Source of the DNA: Maribacter sp. HTCC2170
GTDB taxonomy: Bacteria; Bacteroidota; Bacteroidia; Flavobacteriales; Flavobacteriaceae
DNA length: 64,000 bases
Reading direction: 5' to 3'
NCBI RefSeq assembly: GCF_000153165.2
Contig: NC_014472.1
Location: 3,220,001-3,284,000, forward strand
The notes below the pieces were generated by a model that did not search any database, was not told the origin of the DNA, and worked only from the letters and a program-made list of their open reading frames with translations. This document shows positions 16,083-23,001 of the stretch, one piece after another. Position 1 is the stretch's first letter. Each line of letters starts with the position of its first letter. Position numbers and translations under genes: made by a program.

Positions 16083-16126
16083 AAAAGAGGAAAATTAAGA
16101 CCATATACGCATGTAATTCCTCTTTT
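16083..16126 (-). terminator. Possible terminator of the HTH-PAS gene
   Basis: AAAAGAGGAA (16083-16092) pairs with TTCCTCTTTT (16117-16126) around a 24-nt loop. Read leftwards the stem ends in a T-rich run. It touches the stop codon of the minus-strand gene. The long loop makes it uncertain. Confidence 0.4.
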
Positions 16127-16709
16127 ACTTCTTTTCAAAATTGGCAAATGAAAGGAATCCATCAATATTATCTCTATAAATAATTGGAAAAACTAAAAGT
16201 CTGCACACTATAGGGTAACCCAATTTGTGGTAGTTAGGGAATATTTCTGTAAAAAAAGAGTCTTTGGAGTGTTGTAACAAGTTAAAACTTCTTCTTAGAT
16301 TCTCAGGAAAATCAGTGTGCCGCAGATAGTCCCCAGGGCGTTTACCTTTAATCTCTTTAAGTTCGTAACCTGTATGTTCCGCATACTTATCATTTATACT
16401 AACAACCTTGCCATTCTTGTCTGCAATGCAAATGGCGGGAAATTCCTTCCTAATATCCCTTAACTTCTTCATAAAAAGATCATCACTATTAGTCGGTAGT
16501 TTCATATCACCTTTTCCCAACAAAAGCCATTGTGGACTATAATCCTCAAATATTGTTAAAATTTTCATTAATCTTTCGTACCCAATATCTGCTCTACGTT
16601 CTATTGTTTTTAAAATATAACCTCTTGAAAATCCGCATAATGAATCAAATTTACTGCCACTTATTTCTAAATCTTTAAGGATTGCTTTTAACCTCTCATA
16701 TATATCCAT
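16125..16709 (-). CDS. HTH-PAS regulator-like protein
   Basis: A 194-residue cytoplasmic protein. The first 70 residues (SGSKFDSLCGFSRGYILKTIERRADIGYERLMKIL, then WLLLGKGDM) look like an XRE/phage-repressor-type helix-turn-helix of the kind found in Bacteroidota repressors. Residues about 80-190 form a PAS domain (PAICIADKNGKVVSINDKYAEHTGY and ELKEIKGKRPGD). No kinase or other output domain follows. I infer a ligand- or redox-sensing repressor. It starts the regulatory island and is divergent from the first LytTR gene, with 226 bases between them. Confidence 0.78.
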   Translation of the reverse strand: MDIYERLKAILKDLEISGSKFDSLCGFSRGYILKTIERRADIGYERLMKILTIFEDYSPQWLLLGKGDMKLPTNSDDLFMKKLRDIRKEFPAICIADKNGKVVSINDKYAEHTGYELKEIKGKRPGDYLRHTDFPENLRRSFNLLQHSKDSFFTEIFPNYHKLGYPIVCRLLVFPIIYRDNIDGFLSFANFEKK

Positions 16710-16935: not shown

Positions 16936-17673
16936 ATGCTTGTGGAATACAATTATGTTATCATATGCTCGGATCGCGATTTTAGTTTAGATTTAAAGTT
17001 TAGACTGAAGAAGTATGAAGATTTAGCATTCGTCTCGTTCGCAAAAGATAAAACAGAAGGTTTATTCGTTATTCTAAAACATCGTCCTGATATTGTTTTT
17101 ATAAACTTGTCAAAAAATGCGCCAGAATATTTTAAGATGGTAGTAGAACTTCGGCAGTATTTTCATAATCTACCTATTATTATTGGTATTTCGAACGATA
17201 AGCAATATGTTTTTAAAGCAATAAAAAATCATTTCTTTGACTATTGGCTTTTACCTTACAGCGAATGGGACATAAGCAAGTCCTTACTACATGCCAAAGC
17301 ACAAATACCTGAGAAAACCGAACCTAAAACTCTATGCCTAAAATCATATCGGGATTTTCAATATTTGAACACTGATGATATTCTATACCTCAAATCTGAC
17401 AACAATACCACATGTTTCACTATGAAAAATAGCTCCGAAATAATTGCTTATAAAACCTTGAAGGTATTTGAAAAACAGTTACCAGAACAATTTAAACGTA
17501 TTCATCAAAGCTACATCCTGAATACAGATTGTGTTTCGGGAATTAACTATGGAAAAAACCTCTGCACCATAGCATTCAATAACTCCCAAGTGCCTTTTTC
17601 TAAATCGTATATTAAAAATATTGATGAACTCAAGAAAAAGTTAGCGCAGTCTGCCATTTTCGCCAATAAGTGA
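16936..17673 (+). CDS. LytTR regulator with pseudo-receiver domain (paralogue 1)
   Basis: A 245-residue protein: a receiver-like fold at about 5-120 and a LytTR DNA-binding domain at about 135-240 (FQYLNTDDILYLKSDNN, FKRIHQSYILNTDCVSGI). In the receiver, the beta-3 strand ends PDIVFINL, so the phospho-acceptor position is Asn57, and the conserved beta-5 KP pair has become LP. Phosphorylation is therefore not expected. It is clearly a paralogue of the next gene at 18048; both share FDYW at the end of helix 4. No partner kinase is adjacent on the 5' side. It probably acts as a phosphorylation-independent transcription factor. Confidence 0.85.
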   Translation: MLVEYNYVIICSDRDFSLDLKFRLKKYEDLAFVSFAKDKTEGLFVILKHRPDIVFINLSKNAPEYFKMVVELRQYFHNLPIIIGISNDKQYVFKAIKNHFFDYWLLPYSEWDISKSLLHAKAQIPEKTEPKTLCLKSYRDFQYLNTDDILYLKSDNNTTCFTMKNSSEIIAYKTLKVFEKQLPEQFKRIHQSYILNTDCVSGINYGKNLCTIAFNNSQVPFSKSYIKNIDELKKKLAQSAIFANK

Positions 17674-18047: not shown

Positions 18048-18791
18048 TTGGAATTCAACTACTCCATCATTGATTCTGACGCAACTTCCAATTTGCAATT
18101 GCAGCATTTTTTGGAAGAATATGGAGATTTCTCATGTTCATCTTTAGCTAAAAATAGTAACGACGGTCTTAATTCGATTTTAAAATTTTCTCCCGACGTT
18201 GTTTTCGTAAATCTTAATGAAAATGCTTCCGAATATTTTCAAATGGTCATGGAGATGCATCAGTATGTGAAAAAAATTCCTGTCATTATAGGCATATCCA
18301 AGGCCAAGGAATATGCATACGATGCAATAAAAAATGGCTTCTTTGATTATTGGCTTAAACCATATAATGAATTTGACATTAGAAAATCATTGCTAAGGCT
18401 TAAAAAACATATACCAGAACCTGTACTGGGGATTTCACAACCCAAAACCATTTGTCTAAAATCGTACCGGGATTTCCAATATTTGAACGCTAGTGATATT
18501 ATGTATTTGCAGGCCGATAATAATGCAACAAAATTCGTAATGAAAGATGGGTCAATGAGAAATGCTTTTAAAACCCTCAAAACGTTTGAAAGTATGTTAC
18601 CAAATAATTTCGTGAGAATTCATCAAAGTTTCATTGTGAACACTGATTATATTTCGGGCATCAGTTATGGTAAATCTTTATGTTCATTAAAACTTCGCAA
18701 CCTTCAATTGCCTTTCTCCAAATCGTATAGGGCAAATGTTGATGGCTTAAAAGCCGCATTGTCTAAAAACACAATATCTGCACTTACTTAG
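18048..18791 (+). CDS. LytTR regulator with pseudo-receiver domain (paralogue 2)
   Basis: A 247-residue paralogue of the gene at 16936 with the same architecture. Asn55 replaces the phospho-acceptor Asp (PDVVFVNL), though the beta-5 KP pair is kept (WLKPYNEFD) and the acidic pair near the N-terminus is partly kept (IIDSDA). The LytTR domain spans about 135-245 (FQYLNASDIMYLQADNN, FVRIHQSFIVNTDYISGI). The start is TTG; an in-frame stop lies 27 bases upstream, and the TTG start aligns with the paralogue's N-terminus. The next gene, 137 bases downstream, has three direct repeats at the spacing expected for LytTR binding. Confidence 0.84.
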   Translation: MEFNYSIIDSDATSNLQLQHFLEEYGDFSCSSLAKNSNDGLNSILKFSPDVVFVNLNENASEYFQMVMEMHQYVKKIPVIIGISKAKEYAYDAIKNGFFDYWLKPYNEFDIRKSLLRLKKHIPEPVLGISQPKTICLKSYRDFQYLNASDIMYLQADNNATKFVMKDGSMRNAFKTLKTFESMLPNNFVRIHQSFIVNTDYISGISYGKSLCSLKLRNLQLPFSKSYRANVDGLKAALSKNTISALT

Positions 18792-18793
18792 AA

Positions 18794-18848
18794 AAATCCT
18801 CTCAAAATTGGGTTAAATCCTCTCAAACCCTGGCTTTATACTCTCACT
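18794..18848. promoter_or_regulatory. Three direct repeats at 21-bp period, candidate LytTR binding sites
   Basis: AAATCCTCTCAAA occurs identically at 18794-18806 and 18815-18827, and a weaker copy (TTATACTCTCACT) at 18836-18848. All three are exactly 21 bp apart, two helical turns, so they lie on the same DNA face. LytTR proteins bind short direct repeats with about this centre spacing. The sequence does not match the published LytTR consensus that I recall, so the assignment rests on spacing and on the adjacent LytTR genes. Confidence 0.55.
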
Positions 18849-18858
18849 TTTTAAAAAA

Positions 18859-18891
18859 GCTGCTTATAGCAGCCATAGGTTATTAGTTTTA
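18859..18891 (+). promoter_or_regulatory. Hairpin and candidate -7 element of the repeat-protein gene
   Basis: GCTGC-TTATA-GCAGC forms a perfect inverted repeat at 18859-18873. TAGTTTTA at 18884-18891 matches TAnnTTTG except the last base. No TTG lies at the -33 distance, which fits an activator-dependent promoter with the 21-bp repeats at roughly -48 to -102. Confidence 0.35.
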
Positions 18892-18928: not shown

Positions 18929-19300
18929 ATGAAAAGAGCACTGAGTATTTTAGCAGTAGTAGCAATGACATTAGGATTATTGGCTACAACAACAGAAAAC
19001 GAAATTCAAGATCAAGAAGTAATCACGTGCGATGATTGCGCTCACGATTCTGATGATAGGGAAACTTTGGCATGTGATGATTGCGCTCACGATTCAGATG
19101 ATAGGGAAACTCTGGCATGTGATGATTGCGCTCACGATTCAGATGATAGGGAAACTCTGGCATGTGATGATTGCGCTCACGATTCTGATGATAGGGAAAC
19201 TCTGGTATGTGATGATTGCGCACACGATTCTGACGATAGGGAAACTTTAGCATTTTGCGATGATTGCGCACATGATTCCGATGATCGTGAGACCGTATAA
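18929..19300 (+). CDS. Small secreted protein of six Cys/Asp/His-rich 15-residue repeats
   Basis: A 123-residue protein. Residues 1-20 are a signal peptide (MKRALSILAVVAMTLGLLAT), then a short acidic spacer. From Cys34 to the end there are six tandem copies of CDDCAHDSDDRETLA; copy 4 ends in Val, one extra Phe precedes copy 6, and copy 6 is cut to 14 residues. Each repeat has a CxxC, a His and five Asp, so it could bind metal, but no known family is recognised. The mature part is strongly acidic. It has its own upstream repeats and a strong terminator downstream, so it is a single transcript between the LytTR genes and the TPR kinase. Confidence 0.8.
   Translation: MKRALSILAVVAMTLGLLATTTENEIQDQEVITCDDCAHDSDDRETLACDDCAHDSDDRETLACDDCAHDSDDRETLACDDCAHDSDDRETLVCDDCAHDSDDRETLAFCDDCAHDSDDRETV
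19028..19297 (+). repeat. 45-bp tandem coding repeat, six copies
   Basis: Units start at 19028, 19073, 19118, 19163, 19208 and 19256. Units 1-5 are contiguous, a 3-base insertion (TTT-type codon) precedes unit 6, and unit 6 has more silent changes. The near-identity of units 1-4 at DNA level indicates recent duplication, so copy number may vary between strains. Confidence 0.95.
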
Positions 19301-19323
19301 ATAAGTAAGATTTTTTTTTACGA

Positions 19324-19358
19324 AATGGCTTTGAATTAATTTTCAAGGCCATTTTTTT
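19324..19358 (+). terminator. Strong intrinsic terminator after the repeat-protein gene
   Basis: AATGGCTTTGAA (19324-19335) pairs along all 12 positions, one of them G-T, with TTCAAGGCCATT (19342-19353). The loop is six bases and five more T follow. It separates the repeat-protein gene from the kinase gene. Confidence 0.88.
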
Positions 19359-19393: not shown

Positions 19394-21502
19394 ATGAACA
19401 AATCAAAATACTTCTTAATCCCTAAATGGTTATTGACATTAGTATTCGTATTATTAGCAGTTGCTTGTAACCAAAATAGAAATCAATCCAATATTTCGAC
19501 AGTTGTTGAAAACGATAGTATTTCAATTTGGATTGAACACGGTAAGAATACAAAGATTTCCATAGAGGAAAGAACTAGATATTTAGAAATGGCTTATGAA
19601 CAGGCTTCACAGTTAGCCAATGATTCTATAAAACCAAAGCACTTTTCAAAGCTATCAAATGCGTATTTAAAATTAAGGGATTCTTTGCTTTTTCTCAAAA
19701 TGAACATGGAAAGTACGCAACTCGCCAAAGAAACTGGAGACAGTGTTTCTCTTGCTGAATCGCATTGGGATCTTGCAACATATTATAGGAATAATGGCTT
19801 ACCTGATAGTGCCTACTCTAATTATCGCAATTCTTTTCTTCTTTATGATGCAATGAAAATTGAGAATCTTGCCGCTAGGATTTTATATAATATGGCTACC
19901 ACCCAGAGTAGTATCAAAGATTATACAGGAGCGGAAATTAATGCGTACAAAGCAATAGAAATTTTTAAACCATTGAAGGATAATAGAAGGTTGTTTTTAT
20001 GCTATAACCTGTTGGGTTCAACTTCTACACGATTGAAAGAGTATAAAAAAGCATTGGAGAATTTTAATAAAGCTGAAGAACACCTAAATGAACTGGCCGA
20101 TGAGCAATTTAAAGCTGGGCAATATGCAGGTTTACAGAATAATTTAGGTAATGTATTTAAGTCGCAAAAAAAATTCAAATATGCAATTCCATATTATGAG
20201 AATGCATTATCAAAAGATAGTTTAAAATTTAAAAGACCTGATAGCTATAGCATGTATCTTGATAATTTGGCCAATAGTAGATTTAAATCTGGTGACACGG
20301 TTGGTGTAAAACAACAATTAAATGAGGCACTTGAAATTAGGATAAATCAAAAAGATATAGCAGGAATGGCAAAAAGCCACTACAGTTTGGCTGAATATTA
20401 TTTAAAATACTGGGAAATCGATAAAGCATTGTTAAATGCCCAACTTTCAAAACAATATGCCATTCAGAGCACCAATAATACACGTTTACTAGAGAGTCTC
20501 AAGCTCCTAACGTTGATTGATAAGCCCAATATAGTTGATCATACTTCTGATTATATTGCTTTGAATGATAAATTAATTCAAGAAGAACGTCAGGCCAGGG
20601 ATAAGTTCACTCGAATACGTTTTGAAACTAATGAGGTAAGTGCTCAAAATGAGGTGCTTACAAGAAAACAACAAATTTGGACAGGTGTTGCTTTTGTTAT
20701 TTTTCTTATGGGTCTGGCCGTTTACATTATTCTGAACCAACGTTCAAAAAACCAAGCATTGCGTTTTCAGCAGCAGCAGCAGGCAAGTAATCAAGAAATC
20801 TTCGATTTAATGTTATCACAAAAACAAAAAATAGAAGACACCAAGAAAATGGAACAAAAAAGAATTTCAGAAGAGCTTCACGATGGTGTTCTTGGCAAAA
20901 TGCTAGGTGCACGTATGGTGCTTACAGGCTTGAACAAAAGATCAAATGAAGAAGCCATTGAAGAACGTGCCTCTGCAATTGCTGCCCTAAAAGATGTTGA
21001 AGGGGAGGTCAGGGCAATTTCCCATGAGTTAAGCCATGCTGCATACCAAAACATAAACAACTTCATTAGTTCTATTCAAGAATTAATGAAAAACGTAGGA
21101 ACTGCTAATAATATTGACCATACCTTTGATTATGATGAGGCCTTTGATTGGGATTCGATGTCTGGTGATATTAAGATAAACTTGTATCGGGTAGTTCAGG
21201 AAACACTTCAAAATGCTGTGAAACACTCAGAGTGTAAGAATATTTTGGTTAGCTTTGTAAGGGACAAAAATATATTGAATGTTACGATATCTGATGATGG
21301 CAAAGGCTTTAAATCGAAATCTGGTAAGAAAGGCATTGGTATGCGTAACATTGAATCTAGGATTGGTAAACTAAATGGTAATTGGGACATTAACAGTGTA
21401 GTTGGAGAAGGAACAAAAATTACCTTGAACATACCATTAAAAGAGAGCTTGGATAACCCTCAAATTTTAGTTGAGAAACAGAATTTACAAAAAATAGGAT
21501 AG
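19394..21502 (+). CDS. TPR-containing sensor histidine kinase with lipobox-like signal
   Basis: A 702-residue kinase from the ATG at 19394; a TTG five codons upstream is less likely because the signal peptide starts at MNKSKYF. The N-terminus has a hydrophobic stretch ending AVACNQ (Cys25), a lipobox. Residues about 60-390 form TPR-like helices (YRNNGLPDSAYSNYRNSF, LGSTSTRLKEYKKALENF). A single membrane helix starts near Trp429, then a coiled coil, a HisKA_3-type H-box (ELHDGVLGK, His496) and an HATPase domain (DDGKGF, GIGMRNIESRI). The periplasmic TPR is the likely sensor. The partner regulator is encoded 16 bases downstream. Confidence 0.9.
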   Translation: MNKSKYFLIPKWLLTLVFVLLAVACNQNRNQSNISTVVENDSISIWIEHGKNTKISIEERTRYLEMAYEQASQLANDSIKPKHFSKLSNAYLKLRDSLLFLKMNMESTQLAKETGDSVSLAESHWDLATYYRNNGLPDSAYSNYRNSFLLYDAMKIENLAARILYNMATTQSSIKDYTGAEINAYKAIEIFKPLKDNRRLFLCYNLLGSTSTRLKEYKKALENFNKAEEHLNELADEQFKAGQYAGLQNNLGNVFKSQKKFKYAIPYYENALSKDSLKFKRPDSYSMYLDNLANSRFKSGDTVGVKQQLNEALEIRINQKDIAGMAKSHYSLAEYYLKYWEIDKALLNAQLSKQYAIQSTNNTRLLESLKLLTLIDKPNIVDHTSDYIALNDKLIQEERQARDKFTRIRFETNEVSAQNEVLTRKQQIWTGVAFVIFLMGLAVYIILNQRSKNQALRFQQQQQASNQEIFDLMLSQKQKIEDTKKMEQKRISEELHDGVLGKMLGARMVLTGLNKRSNEEAIEERASAIAALKDVEGEVRAISHELSHAAYQNINNFISSIQELMKNVGTANNIDHTFDYDEAFDWDSMSGDIKINLYRVVQETLQNAVKHSECKNILVSFVRDKNILNVTISDDGKGFKSKSGKKGIGMRNIESRIGKLNGNWDINSVVGEGTKITLNIPLKESLDNPQILVEKQNLQKIG

Positions 21503-21518
21503 TACTAATAAAGGAAAA

Positions 21519-22190
21519 ATGAAGATTGTACGACTTTTATCAGTTGATGACCACGCGATGACGGCAATGGGTTATAAGTATATTTTGGAAGGTTCAGAAT
21601 TTGAAGATTTTCAAGTCAAAGTAGATACCATAAATACCTTTGAAGGAGCAATAGAAAAGATAGATTTCTCTGCCCGTTCATTGCGCTATGACATCCTTTT
21701 GTTTGACATATCACTATTTCCTGCTCATTCGAATGATACAAGAAGTGGCGAGGATTTAGGTATATATGCGCGAGAAAAAGTTCCAGAATCCAAAATTGTA
21801 TTTATGTCCTCTTTTAGTGATAGTTATCGGATTAATAGTCTTTTCAAGACGGTTGACCCCGATGGGTATATGGTAAAATCGGAAATAGATGAGAAATCAC
21901 TTTGCGCCATGGTTCGTACTGTGATGACAAAACCACCATATTATACAGCAAGTGCCTTATCCGCTATTCGTAAAAAAATGGCAAACGATTTTGATTTGGT
22001 TGATGAAACGGACAAAAAAATACTTCATCATATATCCACTGGTACAAGAACAAAGGACATTGGGCCTTTGATTTCAGTTGCTGGAACAACGGTTGAGTCC
22101 CGTAAAAGACAATTGAAACATTTGTTCGGAATTGAACATGGGAATGACATTGAACTGATAGAAGAGGCCAGGAAACGCGGTTTTATTTGA
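21519..22190 (+). CDS. LuxR/NarL-type response regulator
   Basis: A 223-residue protein: receiver domain at about 3-130 with the acidic pair Asp10-Asp11 (SVDDH), phospho-acceptor Asp63 (LLFDIS) and Lys120 (MVKSE), followed by a helix-turn-helix at about 155-215 (DETDKKILHHISTGTRTKDIG, TVESRKRQL). The receiver has an insertion after Asp63 (about residues 66-77). Unlike the two LytTR proteins upstream it keeps a full phosphorylation site. It is the expected output of the TPR kinase, with which it forms an operon. Confidence 0.9.
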   Translation: MKIVRLLSVDDHAMTAMGYKYILEGSEFEDFQVKVDTINTFEGAIEKIDFSARSLRYDILLFDISLFPAHSNDTRSGEDLGIYAREKVPESKIVFMSSFSDSYRINSLFKTVDPDGYMVKSEIDEKSLCAMVRTVMTKPPYYTASALSAIRKKMANDFDLVDETDKKILHHISTGTRTKDIGPLISVAGTTVESRKRQLKHLFGIEHGNDIELIEEARKRGFI

Positions 22191-22356: not shown

Positions 22357-23001
22357 ATGCCTTTAGATTCAGAAAAGTTTGATAATATCTTACCAAATCG
22401 AAATACCAAAACCGCATGTTTTGTTGGCTTAAAGGATTTTGTACAAAGTTTAGAAAAACATTTTTTCTCTAAAATTACGGTCCGAGATAATTCCTCAAAT
22501 GTTCATCAAATCAATTTGGTAATAGAATTAGAGTGCAATTTAACTTTGTTTGAAATGCTATTACACTCTGATAAAGGAAATTGGGGCGCTTTCAATCAGT
22601 CAAGATACTCTCTTGATGCTGAAATTGAAGTTCTGGAAGAAAAGAACAAGGTTTCAATTGATGTAGATGAGTTTTCAATAATACTTAAGGACACTAATAT
22701 TGTCATTGATAAAATATACAACCGAAGTATATCAAATCAACTAGATAGTATTTTCAATGAATTGAATAAACACCAATTCCAGCTTACAAAGGGAAATTCA
22801 GAAGTCCCGTATGAAATCTTTGTAGCTGTATTCGAGGAAGATTTATTGCAAAGCGTGCAACTGGATGTTCCGAAAACAAAAAAGACCCAAAATTATTCAA
22901 GTTTTTGGGCCTTATATTTTGATTCTGAAGAAGATGCTGTAATCTATGATTTAAAAAAATCTAGAATCATTTATGAAGATTTATATATGTTAAATCAGTA
23001 G
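22357..23001 (+). CDS. Protein of unknown function
   Basis: A 214-residue acidic, apparently cytoplasmic protein with no signal peptide, no membrane helix and no motif that I recognise. Predicted strands alternate with helices: INLVIELECNLTLFEMLL, a middle block ending in DVDEFSIILKDTNIVIDKIY, and SSFWALYFDSEEDAVIYDL near the end. The 5' region shares an unusual inverted repeat with the second LytTR gene, so it may belong to the same regulon. It is convergent with glyA, whose stop lies 12 bases away. Confidence 0.7.
   Translation: MPLDSEKFDNILPNRNTKTACFVGLKDFVQSLEKHFFSKITVRDNSSNVHQINLVIELECNLTLFEMLLHSDKGNWGAFNQSRYSLDAEIEVLEEKNKVSIDVDEFSIILKDTNIVIDKIYNRSISNQLDSIFNELNKHQFQLTKGNSEVPYEIFVAVFEEDLLQSVQLDVPKTKKTQNYSSFWALYFDSEEDAVIYDLKKSRIIYEDLYMLNQ

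Follow-up and report, generated by a model that had tools for sequence, protein, structure and literature searches.

The peptide gene and its repeat array

The window, that is, the whole stretch of 64,000 nucleotides that was analysed, belongs to the genome of Maribacter sp. HTCC2170, which consists of a single contig of 3,868,304 bp. Five genes follow one another on its plus strand and code for a LytTR-domain regulator (18048..18791), a small peptide precursor (18929..19300), a sensor kinase (19397..21502), a NarL-type response regulator (21519..22190) and an uncharacterised protein of 214 amino acids (22357..23001). The precursor gene starts with ATG and codes for 123 amino acids, exactly as given in the preliminary description, which had read from it a secreted protein with a signal peptide and six repeats. 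The open reading frame, TRF and the orthologues confirm the six units, and the N-terminus MKRALSILAVVAMTLGLLATTT was judged by eye to be signal-peptide-like and to lack a lipobox cysteine. Behind a short leader, the 12-residue core CDDCAHDSDDRE is repeated without any amino-acid change in six of six units. The units are joined by the linker TLA, which once reads TLV, an additional F precedes the sixth unit, and the protein ends with TV. Each core contains two cysteines, one histidine and five aspartates, which bears out the earlier remark on a CxxC, one His and many Asp per unit.

At the DNA level, TRF describes the array with a period of 45, 5.6 copies, a match of 92% and a score of 399, the highest of the five TRF rows for the whole window. 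An antisense reading frame (19023-19352) and one in another frame (19032-19250) overlap the array and are most simply explained as by-products of the repeat. The structure model of the precursor, calculated from an alignment of only eight sequences, is unstructured (pLDDT 40).

Selection on the repeat unit

The DNA units had been called nearly identical, which agrees with the TRF match; however, the copies of the window array differ silently from unit to unit, while the amino acids of the core are constant. Here, 47 counting steps are silent and five non-silent, and no amino acid of the core is changed; an array of 14 copies shows 101 silent steps and no non-silent one. In 18 of the 19 scored arrays, namely the 18 that vary, pN/pS lies between 0 and 0.13, a count which was made on units fitting a pattern that we chose from the repeat and which favours identical cores. 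Non-silent steps within the core occur in four other arrays (G152, 8; G252, 6; G261, 10.5; G285, 40.5). The 19 scored arrays are part of 22 found in the family described below; those of G209 and G388 were inspected as DNA outside this count, and that of G444 was left unscored. The latter array (L092) has 15 unit starts with one step of 49 instead of 51 bases, and its frame accordingly breaks, either really or by sequencing error.

Within the arrays of six Maribacter species pairs, silent codon differences amount to 0.15-0.24, compared with 0.40-0.52 between the species, as expected of concerted evolution. The core is uniform inside each of these species and differs between them in five of the six pairs. 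In the pair G364/G175, silent differences are equal (0.50 and 0.48) even though all cores of one species are identical and differ by 25% from those of the other, which indicates that the likeness of the units is maintained at the protein level. The preliminary description had named the synonymous/non-synonymous pattern as a check on whether the frame is translated. Run as a silent/non-silent count, this check yielded mostly silent core changes and thus constraint on the protein. That the array is a neutral or selfish stretch of DNA whose protein serves no function, as the high DNA identity of the units (92% in TRF) might suggest, is already contradicted by these silent changes; given in addition the conserved locus, operator and terminator described below, it is hardly credible.

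A conserved locus in Flavobacteriaceae

A search of 99 related genomes with the window protein gave matches at E<=10 in 21, of which the clear ones belong to its own genome and seven others of the genus Maribacter. The units of these relatives differ from those of the window and are uniform within each protein (for instance CDDCSHDKDEREAVA, CDDCAHTKDRRKEKVASAT and CDDCSHDKDRREAKDVVY). Three of 12 genomes of the genus (G002, G004 and G011, all incomplete at 68-94%) gave no peptide match, and a further one (G003) gave only a weak match. This weak match (L017) and those from other genera (L010, L011, L014) are short lipobox peptides, each flanked by a LytTR regulator and a TPR kinase as in the window. 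A scan of genome contigs gave one relative, from a Maribacter MAG.

With the LytTR protein as probe, 72 of 397 genomes of the family matched at E<=1e-62, and 14 of 296 genomes of the order matched at E<=1e-50, all of these in the same family, Flavobacteriaceae. Together with six extra members of the genus, the 72 genomes provided 78 loci, and in 75 of them a peptide reading frame directly follows the LytTR gene. Two of the others (G256, G440) have a distant LytTR protein (43-46% identity) without a peptide, and the locus of G351 is cut by a contig edge, so that no peptide was called there. A kinase gene follows the peptide in 74 of the 75 loci, the remaining one (G047) stopping at a contig edge. 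The NarL-type regulator was found behind peptide and kinase in 71 of the 75; it was absent from the fetched stretch in G007, G155 and G201, and again G047 ends too early. The order of genes in Flavobacteriaceae is hence LytTR regulator, peptide, TPR sensor kinase and NarL-type regulator.

Further genes recur around this core in 71 genomes, with counts limited by the length of the stretch fetched: a lipoprotein-like gene upstream (57), a gene for a protein similar to the 214-aa protein downstream (67), which makes it a recurrent fifth gene and for which Pfam gave an insignificant match only, and a glyA-like gene on the opposite strand (59). From this recurrence, the locus appears to be an old and mostly vertically inherited part of the chromosome. 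In the window, the lipoprotein gene upstream and the LytTR genes are separated by a gene for a PAS-domain regulator with a weak helix-turn-helix match (16125-16709, minus strand). Elsewhere in the same genome, there are two similar-looking lipobox peptides (L151, 1501-1641; L152, 1477-1614), which match the family profile with E-values of 3e-11 and 4e-4, and one of which ends with ASDKDEEPDRGDDK; no LytTR gene was seen by eye in the 3-kb stretches around them.

Anatomy of the peptide family

The predominant form of the peptide, found in 53 of 75 members, is 45-61 residues long and carries a single C-terminal core, mostly behind a lipobox. Arrays of 2-15 copies are present in the other 22, with unit lengths from 12 to 34 residues. 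The core is often of the type A-T-D-G-D-x4-D-x-R-D or A-C-D-G-C-x4-D-D-R (ATDGDxxxxDxRD and ACDGCxxxxDDR), and an acidic residue lies within three places before an arginine in 54 of 72 members, others ending differently, for example with SGGSGG. A leader with an LYE-like motif occurs in 43 of the 75 members and a lipobox cysteine in 57, whereas the window protein and 17 others lack the latter. CxxC is found in 21 members and is absent from the body of 54. Only one member (G105, with TDGC) has an odd number of cysteines after residue 24, which implies that the two core cysteines are mostly gained or lost jointly and suggests that, in the cysteine form, they make a contact or a disulphide.

On a tree of the LytTR and NarL-type regulators (75 rows; 22 of 72 inner branches open, long branches flagged, support uneven), at least eight state changes are needed for arrays, seven for the lipobox and nine for CxxC, and about ten array clades can be distinguished by eye. 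Independent pairs that relate the lipobox to the CxxC state and to the array state number four and seven on starred branches, too few for a pairing test. In some arrays, long spacers lie between the units and stretches of basic residues occur, among them RRKR in G421; these could be cleavage sites. A repeated peptide released from a precursor had been one of two roles proposed at the outset. The precursor part of that proposal has gained ground: the unit corresponds to the C-terminal core of the one-copy relatives, several lineages have multiplied it, and as protein it is strongly constrained. Very probably, the functional peptide is this unit, of which the array is a multiplied form. Release of the units is a separate matter, and the lipobox cysteine of most relatives counts against it, since it would anchor the intact peptide in the membrane.

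Metal binding and peptide modification

The view that no family with this repeat is known agrees with searches of NCBIfam, PADLOC, PHROGs and Pfam, which gave no named family. The window protein has no match in NCBIfam or PADLOC, two unnamed PHROGs families match it on the repeat (best 9.2e-07), and no Pfam match holds up in the orthologues. A phage or defence gene was discarded as a candidate, as the PHROGs families are without a name and PADLOC returned just a TPR model, for the kinase. The lipoprotein family NF050142 (PG1828) resembles the peptides in its signal-peptide and lipobox region, where 18 of 24 members of the peptide family match it weakly (best 9.1e-07); however, the one peptide shown in full matches with residues 1-31 only and scores 21.6 bits, the cut-off being 50, and the window protein is unmatched.

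The composition of the core had also prompted the proposal of metal binding, with CxxC and His as ligands of zinc or copper, or acidic residues as ligands of calcium. In favour of such a secreted metal-binding protein, besides the two cysteines, one histidine and five aspartates per core, is a match of the window protein to Zn_Ribbon_YjdM (PF08274) with 34.6 bits, above the cut-off of 30.8, accompanied by weak matches to several further zinc-ribbon models. However, the best stretch covers profile positions 11-27 of 30 and hence falls short of a full zinc ribbon, and a two-unit orthologue scores only 12.6 bits (E 0.15). An array of 14 units even scores 3e-22 to an unrelated viral Pfam family. 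After scoring of the orthologues and the long array, the zinc ribbon was rejected as inflated by the repeat. The long array in L083 (1680-3200) gives absurd matches above the Pfam cut-offs (PF07935 with 3e-22, and another whose best stretch is two residues), a warning for the automatic annotation of repeat proteins. As a role shared by the family, metal binding is moreover at odds with the absence of CxxC from 54 of 75 members, of His after residue 24 from 55 of 75 and of His from 11 of the 21 members with CxxC. No fold is predicted from the shallow alignment, and five arrays without cysteine matched none of the calcium-repeat families. Metal binding is thus a very improbable explanation of the locus, although it is possible in the Maribacter form alone.

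Alternatively, the precursor could give rise to a multi-core RiPP or a bacteriocin-like product, whose excised units would act against competitors or as a metallophore. Precursors with several cores are described for graspetides (PMC8939145), and RiPP-lipoprotein hybrids of Bacteroidota, such as DybA and ChrA, are described as using lipobox or SPI signals (PMC12636315). The latter hybrids are, in that description, also small peptides with a functional motif at the C-terminus; the peptides studied here differ from them in their tandem arrays and their neighbours, and the CPxCGxG motif is absent from the window protein. MNIO (PF05114) has no match at E<=0.01 in the Maribacter genome, and an MNIO-modified RiPP was rejected on this ground. 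Among the eight largest neighbour clusters of the 71 genomes, no modifying enzyme, processing enzyme, protease, export partner, transporter or immunity gene was recognised, nor, by eye, an ATP-grasp ligase; the maturation or protease gene that had been proposed as something to look for did not appear among the recurrent neighbours. Regulators and a kinase are the genes that recur, and a RiPP or bacteriocin appears improbable.

Candidate operator, promoter and terminator

The gap between the LytTR gene and the peptide gene contains three direct repeats in steps of 21 bp, AATCCTCTCAAAA at 18795, AATCCTCTCAAAC at 18816 and TATACTCTCACTT at 18837 (18795..18849, plus strand), which form a candidate LytTR operator. 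Within the 64 kb, the pair at 18795 (score 30.5) is the sole strong one, the next site outside scoring 12.0. In 59 of 72 loci, the two best copies of the upstream motif near AATWCTCNYARAA are exactly 21 bp apart, and a weaker third copy is visible one step beyond the best pair; the exact pair is missing in the other 13. In the control, the best pair stood 21 or 22 bp apart in 98 of 3600 resampled sequences. The motif had been fitted to these 72 upstream sequences themselves, from a starting consensus picked out by eye, and was applied unchanged to the resampled ones. The 72 loci are those with a LytTR identity of at least 48%, and G106, G205 and G211 (44-45%), which have peptides, were left out.

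Downstream of the repeats lies TAGTTTTA (18884..18891, plus strand), a possible promoter element, which we take to correspond to the -7 consensus of Bacteroidota. A similar box is present in 45 of the 72 upstream regions, in 44 of them 38-61 bp before the ATG. In the gap between peptide and kinase gene, a hairpin of -16.0 kcal/mol followed by a T-run forms an intrinsic terminator (19323..19358, plus strand). Of 71 loci, G047 being left out because it ends at a contig edge, 67 have a similar terminator 3' of the peptide gene, compared with 4 of 213 shuffles. With a candidate operator upstream and a terminator downstream, the peptide is most likely made from a separate short transcript between LytTR and kinase.

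LytTR binding sites are described as 9-bp repeats 10-13 bp apart, with triple repeats for RcoM1 and CoxC (PMC11347149), and the peptide-responsive sil system is reported to have 10-bp repeats with an 11-bp spacer (PMC2766830). The geometry of the 21-bp repeats matches these published sites.

Regulators and sensor kinase

The LytTR regulator (Pfam LytTR, 1.4e-16) has Asn at position 55 of its receiver-like domain, where the phosphoacceptor would be expected. In the 72 loci, this position is occupied by N (60), H (6), R (2), S (2) and D (2), so that the phosphoacceptor Asp is missing from 70 of 72 orthologues. Judged from these sequences, the kinase is probably unable to drive the LytTR regulator in the usual way. 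In contrast, the NarL-type regulator retains D10, D11, D63 and K120 in 68 of 68 proteins and is the likely partner of the kinase, with which it would form the natural pair. A second LytTR regulator, 56% identical, is encoded in tandem (16936-17673) without such a peptide reading frame behind it; two LytTR matches are present in the genome of the window only, among the 72 matching genomes.

The kinase is a protein of about 700 amino acids, in which an N-terminal hydrophobic signal and a TM stretch were assigned by eye, and which contains a TPR sensor part (about residues 36-395) followed by HisKA_3 and HATPase_c (Pfam). A conserved cysteine follows the N-terminal hydrophobic stretch, as if the TPR sensor were lipidated. 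In G003 (L109), 1640 bases separate a kinase reading frame of only 452 residues from the response regulator behind it, and the kinase gene may be split there. The sensor is modelled with confidence as a TPR superhelix (pLDDT 91.8). Foldseek returned LGN/Pins structures first, most of whose titles name a partner complex, while Rap ranks 24th and NprR 40th. The sequence profile placed designed TPRs at the top, followed by, among others, kinesin light chain, LGN, RapF and NprR. The modelled fold would thus suit a receptor of linear peptides, although TPR folds are versatile and bind other partners, O-GlcNAc transferase and designed TPRs being among the relatives of the sensor.

Over 38 within-genus pairs, mean identity is 61% for the TPR sensor, 79% for the kinase part, 86% for LytTR and 91% for the NarL-type regulator, and the sensor has the lowest value in every pair, the pairs being interdependent. 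Such divergence resembles that of receptors following a changing ligand, but rapid evolution is common in sensor domains in general. No paralogous kinase that could serve for comparison was found, this one being the sole HisKA_3 match in the genome. No kinase column follows the CxxC state beyond chance (best 0.48, permuted mean 0.55), and direct co-variation of peptide and receptor was accordingly not found.

The position of the peptide between regulator and kinase wherever both are found would also be compatible with an accessory protein of the kinase, secreted or lipid-anchored and never released, whose units dock on the TPR sensor and hold or inhibit it, additional copies raising the avidity. 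The result would be a feedback loop of the kind represented by CpxP or RcsF. The lipobox cysteine in 57 of 75 members, the conserved N-terminal cysteine of the kinase sensor and the absence of a dedicated protease from the vicinity agree with such a role. However, the window protein and 17 other members have no lipobox cysteine, the long spacers and basic runs of some arrays may be sites of cleavage, and avidity alone leaves the near identity of the units unexplained. An accessory protein is therefore considered unlikely, but deserves more weight than the other alternatives.

Comparison with known peptide signalling systems

Gram-positive bacteria provide the best-known cases of peptide signalling. 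Like the LytTR-linked systems Agr, ComCDE, Blp and Sil, the locus has adjoining genes for peptide, LytTR regulator and kinase (75 of 78 and 74 of 75 loci) and LytTR-type direct repeats before the peptide gene (a predicted site, in 59 of 72). It differs from them in its Gram-negative host, the separate NarL-type regulator and the multi-copy precursors. The peptides of these systems undergo Gly-Gly or AgrB processing, whereas those described here carry a Sec or lipoprotein signal (by eye). Moreover, a TPR sensor with HisKA_3 and HATPase_c takes the place of the polytopic kinase of the AgrC/ComD type, and a LytTR regulator phosphorylated by the kinase is not to be expected from sequences which lack the phosphoacceptor Asp in 70 of 72 cases. 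Precursors of the yeast alpha-factor type hold several tandem copies of one pheromone with short spacers. They are alike in being multi-copy, but the present precursors are bacterial, come without known processing enzymes and have one copy in 53 of 75 members.

RRNPP systems (Rap-Phr, NprR-NprX, AimR) share a short propeptide with an N-terminal secretion signal, a presumably functional C-terminus and an adjoining TPR protein, the last in terms of gene adjacency and TPR fold only; Rap and NprR are, as described above, among the structural and sequence relatives of the kinase sensor. However, RRNPP receptors are described as intracellular proteins of 250-500 residues in a survey that used Firmicutes and viruses (PMC10075063), whereas the TPR domain of the present locus forms the sensor of a membrane kinase of about 700 residues. 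As it fails a defining feature of each system tested, the locus was not filed as a member of any peptide quorum-sensing system. By analogy, it would most likely work like them.

Among the matches listed, the open-access literature contained no Bacteroidota or multi-copy peptide signal like this one. A review mentions that Bacteroidetes have homologues of some of the kinases and regulators of peptide quorum sensing, for example of most Nis proteins; neither TPR nor tetratrico- appears as a word in it (PMC8895600).

Proposed mechanism and implications

The repeated unit, its protein-level constraint, the conserved locus, the candidate operator, the terminator and the resulting transcription unit are supported by the observations above; what we infer is export, release or processing, recognition of the units by the TPR domain through binding, and signalling between cells. 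We consider the chance slightly better than even that the gene codes for a multi-copy precursor of a secreted signal peptide, which is transcribed under LytTR control and sensed by the adjacent TPR kinase. According to this mechanism, the LytTR regulator encoded upstream would bind the 21-bp direct repeats and control a short transcript, which would cover this one gene and stop at the terminator behind it. The product, six copies of one signal peptide with the core CDDCAHDSDDRE, would be exported through Sec, and its units would be released by proteases or, in the lipidated relatives, displayed on the cell surface. They could then bind in the groove of the TPR sensor, from where the signal would pass to the NarL-type regulator, and many copies per precursor would give a higher peptide yield. 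That Flavobacteriaceae as a family use such a peptide language, with a fast-evolving signal of 1-15 copies, an external TPR receptor-histidine kinase and a phosphorylation-independent LytTR regulator, is a wider claim which may equally well prove true or false.

The finding is larger than first stated, since the six-repeat protein is the Maribacter version of a peptide family at one locus of Flavobacteriaceae. The joint gain and loss of the two core cysteines, together with the multiplication of the unit, constitutes a natural experiment on signal evolution. If the proposed reading is right, the genome itself spells out the sequence of the ligand, so that tests with synthetic peptides are immediately within reach. 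The locus would then represent a class of Gram-negative peptide communication in which traits of RRNPP and of Agr/Com systems are combined and the signal is amplified in the style of a polyprotein, and would provide a marine bacterial group with a conserved, species-variable peptide code.
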